Origin: a virus
Length of the DNA stretch: 64,000 nucleotides
Strand: one strand, 5' to 3'
IMG/VR virus record: IMGVR_UViG_3300045747_000054
Span: 114,733 to 178,732 of that record
Within the stretch, counting starts at the first letter, position 1; each line of letters begins with the position of its first letter. Positions 59,158-63,540 of the stretch are shown here, piece by piece. A program made the translations under genes and the position numbers. Under the pieces are notes generated by a model. It worked only from the letters and a program-made list of their open reading frames with translations, searched no databases and was not told where the DNA came from.

Positions 59158-59786
59158 TGGCAATCAAGAAATCAAAACTGCTGGACAAGATAAACGCCAA
59201 CCTATCGGCAACTGGTATGCCTCTGAGGACTACGGATGCTCGTCTATGGCTGAGAAATAACCTCAAGAGCCTTGTGGTGGATCAGCGTGCCATGCTCAAA
59301 GACCGAAAGAGAATGGCAACCAGAATCTTTCCAGGAAAGATGTATTTCTTCAATTACGATCCAAAATTGAAAGAAACGCTGCCTTACTACGATAGATTTC
59401 CTCTAGTCATACCCATCGAAAGATACCCAGATGGTTTTCTGGGAATCAATCTACATTATCTACCTATCAAGTATAGAATCATACTTCTTGATAAACTATA
59501 CAACACACTAAATAATGAGAAATATGACGAAACTACGAAGCTTAGAGTTAACTATACATTACTGAGTGGGACTAGTAGATTCAAAGAATTCCAACCATGC
59601 CTAAAGCGTTATTTGAGTTCTCATCTAAAGTCAAGACTTGTCGAGATCGAACCCAATAGTTGGGAGACAGCAATATTTCTTCCTGTTGAGAGATTTGTTG
59701 GTAAAAGCGCGGCAGCAGTACAGAGAGAATCCGTTAGAGACATATCTCATTACAATCAGAGCGATGAAAACGAAGAGAACAAGTAA
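59157..59786 (+). CDS. Conserved T4-like phage protein beside gp4, possibly DNA end protector gp2
   Basis: The start is ATG 59,157-59,159 (MAIKKSKLLDKINANLSATG), overlapping the gp4 stop as TAATG; an earlier ATG inside gp4 is unlikely. The 209-residue product has a helical basic N-terminus, then KMYFFNYDPKLKETLPYYDR followed by FPLVIPIERYPDGFLGINLH, a motif conserved in T4-like phages as I recall. It ends with ERFVGKSAAAVQRESVR. In T4 gene 2 (end protector, gp64 group) adjoins gene 4, so this may be its counterpart, but I cannot confirm homology. It is part of the head/tail operon. Confidence 0.7.
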   Translation: MAIKKSKLLDKINANLSATGMPLRTTDARLWLRNNLKSLVVDQRAMLKDRKRMATRIFPGKMYFFNYDPKLKETLPYYDRFPLVIPIERYPDGFLGINLHYLPIKYRIILLDKLYNTLNNEKYDETTKLRVNYTLLSGTSRFKEFQPCLKRYLSSHLKSRLVEIEPNSWETAIFLPVERFVGKSAAAVQRESVRDISHYNQSDENEENK

Positions 59787-60694
59787 TGGCATTTAATATC
59801 AACGATTTCAGTAGTCATGTCATTAAGTATGGAGAATTTGCCAAGACTGACAAGTTTGATGTATTGGTTGGAGTACCAGCACAATTACAAAAACTAAATC
59901 TTGGTTTTGGTGATAAAGAACTTATCATGCAGTGCGATACTGCCGAGTTGCCTGGTGTTGCAATCAACATGGCAGAATTCCGTCATTATGGATTCATCAA
60001 GAGAATTCCTCACCATCTAAGTTATCCAGAAATCACTTTAGGATTCTATTGCAATGGAAGAATGCTAGAAAAGAACTTCTTCGATAAGTGGGTACAGGCA
60101 ATGATTCCTTCTACACCAGACGGTATTGATAATGGTCTGGTTAACTATTTCAACGTTAACGATTACATATCCAAGCTTACGATCAGACAGTACTCGCACA
60201 TTGCAGATGGTACCAAGGCACTAAATGGTGTTACAGTGAACTCCGGTCCTCAGACATTTCTAGAAAGAGTCGAAGGTGCCGTGAAGAGTGCTGCAATTAA
60301 CTCGGTAATGGGCAAGGCTGAACAGTTAATTGCACCAGTCGGCGCACTATTGAGTCAGACAAAAATGAAGGATAATACTCGTCAGGATTCAGACCAATTC
60401 AATCCAGACATCATCTACGAATGCGTCATCGAAGACGCAATTCCAGTATCGATAGGTTCCCTACCACTAAACTGGTCGGATGATTCCATCCATAGATTGA
60501 TGGTCACATTCGCATACAAGAAGTGGTACAGCACAACCACACACGCCACAGACAACTTTCCAGATGCAGTCAGTAACATTCCTGGAGTTCCACTACAGAA
60601 AGATTTGAGAAATGATTTGAAGAATAGACTCTACAATAACGTATCCAATAAGGCAGGAAGCGTTGTCAGTGGAACACTGAATAAACTATTTTGA
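59786..60694 (+). CDS. 54: Baseplate tail tube initiator gp54
   Basis: This 302-residue protein (T4 gp54 is 320) sits on gp48 and starts polymerisation of gp19. It begins MAFNINDFSSHVIKYGEFAK, similar to the tube protein. It has CDTAELPGVAINMAEFRHYG then RIPHHLSYPEITLGFYCNGR, ending with the tube-type strand ECVIEDAIPVSIGSLPLNWS and LMVTFAYKKWYS. The central helix region (about 165-205) is specific to the initiator. The ATG overlaps the preceding stop region. Presence on the plus strand with gp26 and the tape measure fits a tail-initiation operon. Confidence 0.88.
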   Translation: MAFNINDFSSHVIKYGEFAKTDKFDVLVGVPAQLQKLNLGFGDKELIMQCDTAELPGVAINMAEFRHYGFIKRIPHHLSYPEITLGFYCNGRMLEKNFFDKWVQAMIPSTPDGIDNGLVNYFNVNDYISKLTIRQYSHIADGTKALNGVTVNSGPQTFLERVEGAVKSAAINSVMGKAEQLIAPVGALLSQTKMKDNTRQDSDQFNPDIIYECVIEDAIPVSIGSLPLNWSDDSIHRLMVTFAYKKWYSTTTHATDNFPDAVSNIPGVPLQKDLRNDLKNRLYNNVSNKAGSVVSGTLNKLF

Positions 60695-60710: not shown

Positions 60711-61424
60711 ATGAGTTTGCCAAAGATCCAGTATCCGATATATGAAGCGAAGATTCTTTCCAGAGAAAAGCCTATAAAGTTTAGACCCTTTCTGGTGAAA
60801 GAACAGAAGCTTCTCATGATGGCAGTCGAATCCAAAAGCATGGATACTGTTGTTGACTCCATCAAACAGATTATTAACAATTGCGCTCTAGAAGAGTTGG
60901 ATGTAGATTCACTCTCTATGGTGGATGTCGAACTATTCTTTCTCAATCTAAGAGGAAGGTCTGTTGGGGAAACCATTGATGTATTCTTCAAGTGTAAGAA
61001 CTTGGTCGAAGATCAAGAATGTGGAATGGTTATCGATGTAAATGTAGACATTCTAAAAGATGTTACTGTTAAGAATGTTGGTATATCCAACAAGATCATG
61101 TTCACTGATAAAATCGGTGTCATGATGAAGTACCCAACACTAGAGTTTCTAAAGATTGTAGAATCAGAAGAGAACGTCAGCAACAAAATGATTGCTATGT
61201 GTATAGACAAGATTTTCGATGATGATGAAGTCTATGATCCAAAGGATGCCACACCAGAAGAAGTCGATGAATTCTTGACCAACATCAAAGAAGATGTATA
61301 CGAGAAATTACAAAACTTCATAAAGAACGCACCAACAATTCACTATTCTAACCAACACATTTGCACAAAATGTGGATTCGAACATACAGTCAAGTTGGAG
61401 GGACTGAACGATTTTTTTACCTAA
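60711..61424 (+). CDS. 26: Baseplate hub assembly protein gp26 / tail assembly chaperone-like (zero-frame product)
   Basis: The product has 237 residues. The N-terminus LPKIQYPIYEAKILSREKPI then KFRPFLVKEQKLLMMAVESK is the T4 gp26 baseplate family signature. The central INNCALEELDVDSLSMVDVE and FFLNLRGRSVGET are also typical, and a C-terminal zinc-ribbon-like CTKCGFEHTVKLEGL follows (only two cysteines in the second knuckle). The gene ends GLNDFFT at TAA 61,422-61,424. Six codons before the stop region there is a 7-T run (61,412-61,418) at which a -1 shift would join a conserved 69-residue extension. It lies directly before the tape-measure-like gene. Confidence 0.88.
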   Translation: MSLPKIQYPIYEAKILSREKPIKFRPFLVKEQKLLMMAVESKSMDTVVDSIKQIINNCALEELDVDSLSMVDVELFFLNLRGRSVGETIDVFFKCKNLVEDQECGMVIDVNVDILKDVTVKNVGISNKIMFTDKIGVMMKYPTLEFLKIVESEENVSNKMIAMCIDKIFDDDEVYDPKDATPEEVDEFLTNIKEDVYEKLQNFIKNAPTIHYSNQHICTKCGFEHTVKLEGLNDFFT

Positions 61425-61627
61425 GCTTTGGTAATGATAGTTTGAAGACATATTACAGCACCACGTTCACGATGATTAATGATCACAAATACTCATTGAC
61501 CGATCTTGAAAATATGCTACCTTGGGAAAGAGATATGTACGTTACCATGCTCGTAAGCAAGATTAGAGAAGAGAACGAAAGAATCAAGTTGGAAAATCAA
61601 CAGAAGAGAGCAACTAGAAGAAGATGA
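61361..61627 (+). CDS. -1 frame extension of gp26 (gp51-like / tail assembly chaperone C-terminus)
   Basis: The open frame is -1 relative to gp26 and runs to TGA 61,625-61,627, overlapping the tape-measure ATG (ATGA). The meaningful part begins at 61,418 (YLSFGNDSLKTYYSTTFTMI, then LTDLENMLPWERDMYVTMLV, a helical charged tail). It resembles from memory short proteins after gp26 in T4-like phages ('YYxTxF...LxxMxPWER'). The in-frame ATG at 61,361 lies inside gp26 with no ribosome-binding site and would add an unrelated MHKMWIRTYSQVGGTER leader, and the next ATG removes conserved residues. Production as a 305-residue fusion by frameshift is therefore more likely. Confidence 0.7.
   Translation: MHKMWIRTYSQVGGTERFFYLSFGNDSLKTYYSTTFTMINDHKYSLTDLENMLPWERDMYVTMLVSKIREENERIKLENQQKRATRRR
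61412..61418 (+). promoter_or_regulatory. Putative -1 ribosomal frameshift site (T TTT TTT)
   Basis: Zero-frame codons are GAT TTT TTT ACC TAA, so the heptamer T TTT TTT is in the X XXY YYZ register, with the stop one codon later. A -1 slip reads on as TAC CTA AGC TTT GGT and continues for 69 residues to 61,627. A gpG/gpGT-like role is inferred from the position immediately upstream of the tape measure. Confidence 0.65.
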
Positions 61628-63540
61628 AAAAGACTAAAACTGGACTAGGACTCAAGGCAGTAGGCAATAAACTCACTCAAACCAAAGGAAAACTTGGTGG
61701 TAAAGGTGATAAGAAAGTTGTTGCTGGAAGCTATGAAGAATATTCCAAAAAGCAGAATTCTGAAAGAGAGTCTTACGATACATTGAAATATGGTGGTAAA
61801 GGCACTGCCAGAAAATTCCTTCATGGATTCACTGCCGGTGTTGTTGGTGAAAAGAATGCATCTTCTTTATCAGAGAGATTTGGTAATAAGAATGAACAAG
61901 AAGAGGCATATCAGAATCTACGTGGAAAGTCTACTGATATGGGTAAGACTACACCTGTCAGTGGCGTAGCCGATACTAAGACTGAAAAGATAGTAAAAAC
62001 AGGAACTAGTAAGATTCTCGGTGAAGTTGATTCAGTTGACAGCAAGGTAGAAAAGATAGGAGCATCTGTTCAGAAAATAGAGACTTCTATGGCAGTGGCA
62101 CAAGATCCAGATGCTCCATTGTCGGATAAGAATGATCCACTATACAAAGAATTCGCTGCCTTCCTAAAGAAGCGCGGTGGCAAAGGTGTGGACATTGAAG
62201 AAAGAATGAAGACATCTTGGGGTTCCACAGAAGAAGAAAGAATGAAGAATCTTCTTAGTGGAAAGAAGTATGAGAGAAAAGAGAGTCCTACTCTAGAAAA
62301 GCTTCCTGTTCAACCAAATCAAGAACCCACCGTTGACAAGCTGAATAAAGATGAAGTAGTTCCTGCTACAGAGGTTGCTAAAGAAGGTCTTGATAGACCA
62401 AGAAGACAGAAATCTGGAAGAAGATCCAGATATAGTTATGAAGATGATACTCCAAAGACATATGCAGACTACTCTAAAAAGAGAAAGAAAGAGCAGGAAG
62501 CAGAAGAAACTCTTAGATATGGTGGCAAAGGTGCAGGAAGAAAGTTCCTATATGGATTCACTGCTGGTCTTATTGGTGAAAAGAATGCCAGTAGTATCGC
62601 TGAAAAGCATGGTAACAAACAGCAACAAGAAGAAGCATACCAAACTCTCAAGCCAAAAGATCGTGGAGCATCTGCTGGTATTGGAGATCAGGCTAAAGCT
62701 GAAGAAGCAAGAAAAGAAGATGATAAGAAAGAACAAGATGCAAAAGAAGAAAAAAAGAAAGAAGAGTTAAAGAAAGAACTTGACGGAATTAAAGAAACAG
62801 TAGAGAAATCTTCTAGAGACGGTCTTGGTAAGATTATGGGATTTATAGGAACTGCTATCAAAGGATTAATGGCAGTAGTCGGTCCTGCACTTGCCGCTCT
62901 ATCAGAAATGTTACTACCAATAATTGCTGTAGTCGGTGCCGGTATTGCTGGATATAAGATTGCAAAAGCTTTAGGTGCAGACAAGGCAGGTGCTGCTATT
63001 GCCAGTGGATTTGGTAAGCTAACTGGTCAAGATGCAGAAGCAAATAAAGCTGCACATGGAAATGAAATTTCTCATGAAGAGATGACAAAGAGACAAAATG
63101 CCAAACTTGAAGGAACTGGATACACATGGGCAGGACCGGGAAAGTTCAAGGATAAAGACGGTAATATTGTCAGTAACGATAAACTTCCAAAAGACGTTCA
63201 GGAAAAAATCGCTGGCAAAGATTTCCAGTCTCAGGATGCTGCATTAACCAGAAAAGAATATGCAAATTCTCAAAAGGGAACCACACAAGTACAGTCTAAG
63301 GCTAAAGAAGATGCCGTATCTCAACCATCGGCAGAGAACAAGCAACTATCAGATAGCAGAAATAAGAATACAACTACTGTAGTTAATGTTCCTGCAAAAC
63401 AACAGGCACCAAATGTCATTCAATCGAATAAAGATAGTGGTGGAATCATTATAATACGTAACACAGAACCTTCTGTGGCAACATACGTTGCATCAATCTT
63501 TGATCATCCAGTGGTACATCCCGGCATCTACAAGATGTAA
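61624..63540 (+). CDS. 29: Tape measure protein-like (gp29-type) with internal duplication
   Basis: This 638-residue protein (T4 gp29 is 590) is the probable tail-length ruler inside the tube. It is Lys/Glu/Ala-rich and mostly helical. A hydrophobic pair of segments at about 400-465 (GFIGTAIKGLMAVVGPALAA then LLPIIAVVGAGIAGYKIAKA) is typical of tape-measure proteins that enter the host membrane. Residues 36-102 and 279-345 are a gap-free duplication (core YGGKGTARKFLHGFTAG / YGGKGAGRKFLYGFTAG). The C-terminus ends VATYVASIFDHPVVHPGIYK. Location after gp54 and the frameshift cassette supports the role; direct similarity to T4 gp29 is not visible by eye. Confidence 0.75.
   Translation: MKKTKTGLGLKAVGNKLTQTKGKLGGKGDKKVVAGSYEEYSKKQNSERESYDTLKYGGKGTARKFLHGFTAGVVGEKNASSLSERFGNKNEQEEAYQNLRGKSTDMGKTTPVSGVADTKTEKIVKTGTSKILGEVDSVDSKVEKIGASVQKIETSMAVAQDPDAPLSDKNDPLYKEFAAFLKKRGGKGVDIEERMKTSWGSTEEERMKNLLSGKKYERKESPTLEKLPVQPNQEPTVDKLNKDEVVPATEVAKEGLDRPRRQKSGRRSRYSYEDDTPKTYADYSKKRKKEQEAEETLRYGGKGAGRKFLYGFTAGLIGEKNASSIAEKHGNKQQQEEAYQTLKPKDRGASAGIGDQAKAEEARKEDDKKEQDAKEEKKKEELKKELDGIKETVEKSSRDGLGKIMGFIGTAIKGLMAVVGPALAALSEMLLPIIAVVGAGIAGYKIAKALGADKAGAAIASGFGKLTGQDAEANKAAHGNEISHEEMTKRQNAKLEGTGYTWAGPGKFKDKDGNIVSNDKLPKDVQEKIAGKDFQSQDAALTRKEYANSQKGTTQVQSKAKEDAVSQPSAENKQLSDSRNKNTTTVVNVPAKQQAPNVIQSNKDSGGIIIIRNTEPSVATYVASIFDHPVVHPGIYKM

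Follow-up and report, generated by a model that had tools for sequence, protein, structure and literature searches.

The window analysed here is a 64,000-nucleotide stretch of viral DNA (positions 114,733 to 178,732 of the IMG/VR virus record IMGVR_UViG_3300045747_000054), in which a homologue of phage T4 gp26 is overlapped, in the -1 frame, by an extension with a gp51 domain. As judged from sequence comparison, this gp26/gp51 locus very probably encodes a tail assembly chaperone pair made by programmed -1 ribosomal frameshifting. The features of the locus are listed in Table 1. The 3' end of gp26 reads GAT TTT TTT ACC TAA, with the heptamer in the X XXY YYZ register. An original prediction, made from the letters of the window alone, had described seven Ts in perfect X XXY YYZ register, separated from the gp26 stop by a single codon, and this run was indeed seen at 61412-61418. 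The predicted 69-residue continuation was also exact, following F236 from TAC (61418-61420) to TGA (61625-61627), and this TGA overlaps the ATG of the next open reading frame (ORF) at 61624.

Table 1. Features of the gp26/gp51 locus and its neighbours in the window
Feature	Position	Strand	Evidence
gp26 homologue, short tail assembly chaperone (TAC-N), 237 aa	60711..61424	+	PF12322, phrog_150, AlphaFold model
Slippery heptamer T TTT TTT	61412..61418	+	direct reading; register constant among relatives
Zero-frame gp26 stop TAA, one codon (ACC) past the heptamer	61422..61424	+	
-1 frame extension, 69 codons and TGA, gp51 domain (TAC-C)	61418..61627	+	phrog_634, third-position bias, alignment with the T4 gp51 C-terminus
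GGAGG, Shine-Dalgarno-like, 10 nt 5' of the heptamer, probable frameshift stimulator	61397..61401	+	Glu codon bias
-1 frame ATG, judged unused	61370..61372	+	no Shine-Dalgarno; in-frame TGA in L002
Tail tube protein, upstream neighbour	59786..60694	+	phrog_45 E 3.1e-26, PF23849 E 1e-6
638-aa ORF, downstream neighbour, candidate tape measure	61624..63540	+	position, length, one hydrophobic stretch only

The gp26 homologue gave a full-length match to PF12322 (E 9.6e-54, 182.8 bits, profile positions 3-218 of 219) and also matched phrog_150 (E 4.7e-57), while the -1 extension matched phrog_634, 'baseplate hub assembly catalyst' (gp51), with an E value of 2.5e-22. When all 81 window ORFs of at least 100 aa were examined, an in-register XXXYYYZ within the last four codons was found in two, and T TTT TTN in gp26 alone. 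Together with its recurrence in nearly all related loci (see below), this rarity indicates that the run in gp26 goes beyond chance.

To examine the conservation of the heptamer, 160 loci from viral contigs and 17 annotated isolate regions were gathered, giving 178 loci with the window. Four of them, on contigs ending before any gp26 stop, were dropped (174 left), and removal of 20 repeats of the 105-nt context gave 154 distinct loci. The results showed that T TTT TTN stands in register, at most three codons from the stop, in 148/154 distinct gp26 loci, and that a gp51 domain was detected in the -1 frame of 145/154 with a hidden Markov model (HMM). The alignment of gp26 3' ends over T4-like phages, proposed as a check when the frameshift was first suspected, thus came out in its favour. 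The run was absent from six loci, namely those of Cygsa01, two Ackermannviridae, Vibrio K493 and two T4-type phages. Nine loci initially gave no gp51 HMM match: three end too early (L025, L148 and L155), two belong to two-gene phages (L098 and L099), and four are others. An open -1 frame was seen in L088, L090, L091 and L096, with domain scores of 12.7, 12.0, 5.6 and 9.1 bits, respectively, and the best of 200 shuffled controls reached 4.0; the domain of L091 is doubtful because its score lies near that control.

We then used a 116-row set of loci with less than 80% gp26 identity. As a gp51 domain in the -1 frame was the basis for selecting these rows, the in-register T TTT TTN found in 115/116 of them (T TTT TTC in 76, T TTT TTT in 35) measures the run and not the layout, for which the HMM count over the distinct loci applies. 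The stop follows one codon after the heptamer in 100 rows. The T run begins at codon position 3 in 115/116 regardless of its length, which is six in 79 rows and seven to nine in 36. The residue before Phe-Phe is variable (Ser 47, Asp 32, Asn 32, Gly 2, Ala 1, Phe 1), but its codon always ends in T, and Ser at this place is AGT in 42 rows, although AGT makes up 19% of Ser codons. The first Phe (F235) is encoded by TTT in 115/115 rows, while other conserved Phe columns before the run use TTT in 50-87%. Because the T-final codon is kept while the residue varies, and because the first Phe is always TTT, these codon patterns are, as far as the alignment tells, the mark of a slip site and not of a protein constraint. 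The rows are related, so no honest p-value can be attached to these counts; a log10 P of -61 for the NNT TTT pattern assumes independent rows and was not used as a probability.

The -1 frame itself appears to be under purifying selection, with 71, 45 and 232 substitutions at codon positions 1, 2 and 3 in 11 hand-picked pairs. In the window its start candidates are the ATG at 61370 and the TTGs at 61361 and 61442, none with a Shine-Dalgarno (SD)-like site. The earlier statement that this frame has no usable start codon was therefore slightly too strong as to the codons, which exist, and held as to the SD-like site. In L002, the nearest relative (gp26 92% identical), an in-frame TGA cuts the corresponding ATG off from the gp51 domain. 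The -1 frame holds no ATG in 75/116 relatives and no ATG, GTG or TTG with an SD-like site in 112/116. In 105/116 the -1 frame has a stop in the 60 nt preceding the gp26 stop, and the frame of the window is open for 70 nt.

Upstream of the slip site, GGAGG (61397-61401) falls within the codons of Leu-Glu-Gly. GAGG was present in 58/115 rows, and in 50 of those 58 it ends 10 nt before the heptamer. Glu at this site is encoded by GAG in 53/90 rows, compared with only 13-27% in nine other conserved Glu columns. The mean anti-SD pairing energy was -6.69 vs -4.79 for synonymous randomisation, and none of 40 randomised sets was as low. The element is probably a frameshift stimulator resembling that of dnaX.

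Taken together, the heptamer held in one register, the selected -1 frame, the lack of a conserved start and the absence of the run where gp51 is separate strongly favour programmed -1 frameshifting as in lambda G/GT, and the comparative evidence supports the original prediction that gp26 is joined in this way to its downstream extension. From this anatomy and its conservation we infer that most ribosomes would read gp26 through to TAA and release the short form, while some, in a proportion set by the efficiency of the slip, would shift one base in the 5' direction, both Phe tRNAs sitting on T TTT TTT, and make a 305-aa gp26-gp51 fusion. Pairing of GGAGG, 10 nt upstream, with 16S rRNA would aid the slip. 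By analogy with lambda G/GT, the short form may coat the tape measure and the long form may recruit tail tube subunits.

Several results weigh against this interpretation. A -1 frame start codon lies within -10 to +8 of the gp26 stop in 30/116 relatives, and 11 of them have TAATG. A downstream stimulatory structure was sought with RNAalifold in 14 sequences, and no consensus pairs were found. The mean folding z was -0.92 (+12 to +92) and -0.62 (+12 to +62), while three control stretches gave -0.24 to +0.04 and the window itself +0.6 and -0.03 over the same two ranges; with means only slightly under the controls and a window value that is not lowered, downstream RNA folding is at most a weak tendency. 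In addition, a Foldseek search of the gp26 model against the PDB returned nothing at E 0.001 or better (2ob9_B, the HK97 tail assembly chaperone, at E 4.4), and the chaperone fold is backed only by VIA-align Z values near 7 over the first 90 residues.

The start codons near the stop would fit another explanation, namely translational coupling: ribosomes would restart in the -1 frame near the gp26 TAA and make the gp51 domain as a small protein of its own. Besides the 11 loci with TAATG, six of the 116 have an ATG located five bases past the beginning of the stop codon, Cygsa01 has TAATG without the run, and the records of S-PM2 and Cygsa01 annotate gp51 as a separate product. However, no ATG, GTG or TTG stands between -10 and +8 in 86/116, window included, coupling gives no reason for the conserved run and its register, and in two-gene phages the gp51 domain occurs in no form other than joined to a part resembling gp26. 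Between the end of the SD-like element and a TAATG start there are about 22 nt, too long a distance for it to serve a coupled start of gp51. We consider coupling unlikely. It is still less likely that the T run makes RNA polymerase slip instead of the ribosome, giving mixed transcripts: a homopolymer is present, and the rows with seven to nine Ts could suit such slippage, but most rows have only six, and the constant codon register speaks against a polymerase, which is indifferent to register. Finally, the window comes from an IMG/VR virus record and a T7 is error-prone, so a homopolymer sequencing error might have split one gene in the assembled contig. The occurrence of the run across the distinct loci, including the isolates S-PM2, P-SSM7 and Aeh1, refutes such an error for this type of locus, most loci have T6C and not T7, and for the window itself we regard its probability as negligible.

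The proposed frameshifting at the window locus was compared with the arrangement in T4, where gp26 (208 aa) and gp51 (249 aa) are separate, divergently placed genes. The window locus lacks a T4-style separate gp51 of about 250 aa and has instead the 69-residue -1 extension, which has no conserved start. In a two-sequence comparison T4 gp51 was 20% identical to T4 gp26 over 161 aa (E 3e-6), and residues 135-284 of the predicted 305-aa fusion aligned to T4 gp51 113-246 across the junction (E 1.4e-5). The gp51 of Aeromonas phage 31 aligned with fusion residues 23-287, and the gp51-domain HMM matched T4 gp51 at 206-244. T4 gp51 matched 1339 phage records, 1334 of them over at least 80% of its length. 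T TTT TTN was found in gp26 of none of seven two-gene phages (T4, HMGUkp2, G2285, RB43, KARL-1, Aeromonas 31 and phiP4-3); RB43 and phiP4-3 have a different XXXYYYZ in register no more than eight codons from the stop, and T4, HMGUkp2 and G2285 retain Phe-Phe with the codons TTC TTT. Since the T run is missing from the two-gene phages and the predicted fusion can be aligned with their gp51, the gene pair appears to stand in for the slip site in the T4-type lineage. In a gene tree of 34 hand-picked rows, the gp51 N-parts of two-gene phages lay on one side of a branch (100/100), whereas their gp26 sequences grouped weakly (52/46), the long branches of RB43 and Aeromonas 31 met, and the duplication was not placed.

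A run-free clade (97/99) was also observed, consisting of T751 (L090), SenALZ1 (L096), K493 (L091) and Cygsa01 (L089), with ATTTTC or CTTTTC instead of the T run. Its -1 frame is still open with a gp51-like domain (the K493 match is doubtful); K493 and Cygsa01 have TAATG, which is absent at the stop of the two Ackermannviridae, where about 500 nt are left unannotated. The SD-like element and T-run slip may be ancestral to the whole gp26/gp51 group, the T4-type lineage having swapped them once for a gene pair and the Ackermannviridae/Cygsa01/K493 clade for a third, run-free way of expressing the -1 gp51 domain, a scenario for which we see about even chances.

The tail tube gene upstream and the short ORF overlapped by a -1 ORF agree with the lambda-like layout claimed at the outset, while the adjoining tape measure is assigned by position only. 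The 638-aa ORF had no Pfam or PHROG match, tblastn over 50,697 phage records found no match, and there was no relative among 54 pattern hits in viral contigs. A T4 gp29 query gave no match in the genome of the window, a search that had no positive control and is uninformative. Among 27 hand-picked loci, a further ORF starts near the gp51 stop in most, mostly of 600-1290 aa where complete; shorter ORFs follow in L032, L043, L054, L063 and L073, and there is a gap in HTVC008M. From its place and size, the 638-aa ORF is a candidate tape measure. By eye it seems internally duplicated, with YEEYSKKQ...GEKNASSLSERFGNK close to its start and YADYSKKR...GEKNASSIAEKHGNK around its middle.

AlphaFold gave a gp26 model with a pLDDT of 90.5 (56-row alignment). 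VIA-align compared it with 3fgx_A (Z 7.1), YqbN (3klu; Z 7.1, rmsd 4.1, 85 residues) and 2ob9_B (Z 6.8, rmsd 4.0, 84 residues, in the N-terminal 90 residues of gp26), followed by 5ir0_B (Z 4.3) and then a fall to 2.0. VIA-align cautions that Z values around 7 may be common; given the Z gap below the top rows and the identity of 2ob9, the modelled likeness to the HK97 chaperone fold is supportive, not decisive. The best named matches in the viral structure library were gp26-type baseplate hub proteins, and the gp26 profile had no match up to E 1 among solved-structure sequences. We also observed that 5ir0_B, which resembles model residues 8-90, is ORF19 of a Vibrio cholerae phage-inducible chromosomal island (PICI)-like element, and such a satellite perhaps has a tail chaperone-like protein of its own. 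C218 and C221 of gp26 are nearly invariant, as is C104 in another alignment, while S-PM2 and P-TIM40 are without them; these cysteines are possibly a metal site.

A study by Vladimirov, Gautam and Davidson (2022, Virology 566:9-15), known to us from its title and from citing papers, reportedly deals with T4-like tail assembly chaperones. In the available parts of the papers citing it, some T4-like phages are described as encoding, in place of a frameshift, one short gene and one longer, fused gene (PRFect, PMC10885494), and TAC-N genes of T4-like phages as having poly-T slip signals (the Adele paper, PMC12846349). The chaperone genes meant there appear to be gp26 and gp51. The statement in the original prediction that no frameshift is described for T4 gp26/gp51 thus does not hold for frameshifts of this kind. 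Atkins et al. (2016, PMC5009743), in the portions consulted, describe G-T frameshifting as a conserved trait of long-tailed phages, T4 being the exception, and name the tape measure and tube proteins as what the lambda G/GT proteins act on.

For cyanophage and marine vibriophage gp51, Sullivan et al. (2010, PMC3037559) reported, in the sections available, that the initial 200 residues are missing, and for Aeh1 that it has no gp51; the slip-site layout would explain both. In Aeh1 (L086, around 2720) the -1 frame following T TTT TTC encodes an unannotated gp51 domain (21.7 bits). Of 15 isolate records in which a gp51-like frame follows gp26, none annotates a joined gp26-gp51 product. In P-SSM7 (L097), P-TIM40 (L082) and HTVC008M (L087), the annotated gp51 (96, 147 and 138 nt, respectively) begins well past the gp26 stop and omits part of the domain. 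The modest additions made here are the conserved SD-like element, the hidden gp51 domain of Aeh1 and the clade that lost the run; the first two were not mentioned in the portions surveyed of a literature that excludes Vladimirov et al. 2022. The analysis settles how the locus is to be read where databases annotate two genes, or one with its partner missing, and the SD-like element yields a simple testable prediction on what sets the chaperone ratio, hence tail assembly.

The lambda slip heptamer is GGGAAAG. The locus studied here resembles lambda G/GT in having a short ORF overlapped by a -1 ORF at a slip heptamer, and differs in that the heptamer is T TTT TTY and the stop lies one codon past it. 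Frameshifting in E. coli dnaX involves an SD-like element about 10 nt upstream of an A-rich heptamer and a downstream hairpin; the spacing of the element is alike in both, but here the heptamer is a T run and a conserved hairpin was not found in 14 sequences. T4 has two genes where the phage of the window has one locus with a slip site. Poly-T slip sites in TAC-N genes are shared with the T4-like chaperones of Vladimirov et al. 2022, as relayed by the available parts of the citing papers. The chaperone of Pakpunavirus Adele and of Vandenendeviridae, as described in the parts of PMC12846349 at hand, likewise uses a T-rich motif for a -1 slip, ahead of the tape measure gene, with an invariant GTTTTT in those other phage families and T TTT TTN in the present one.
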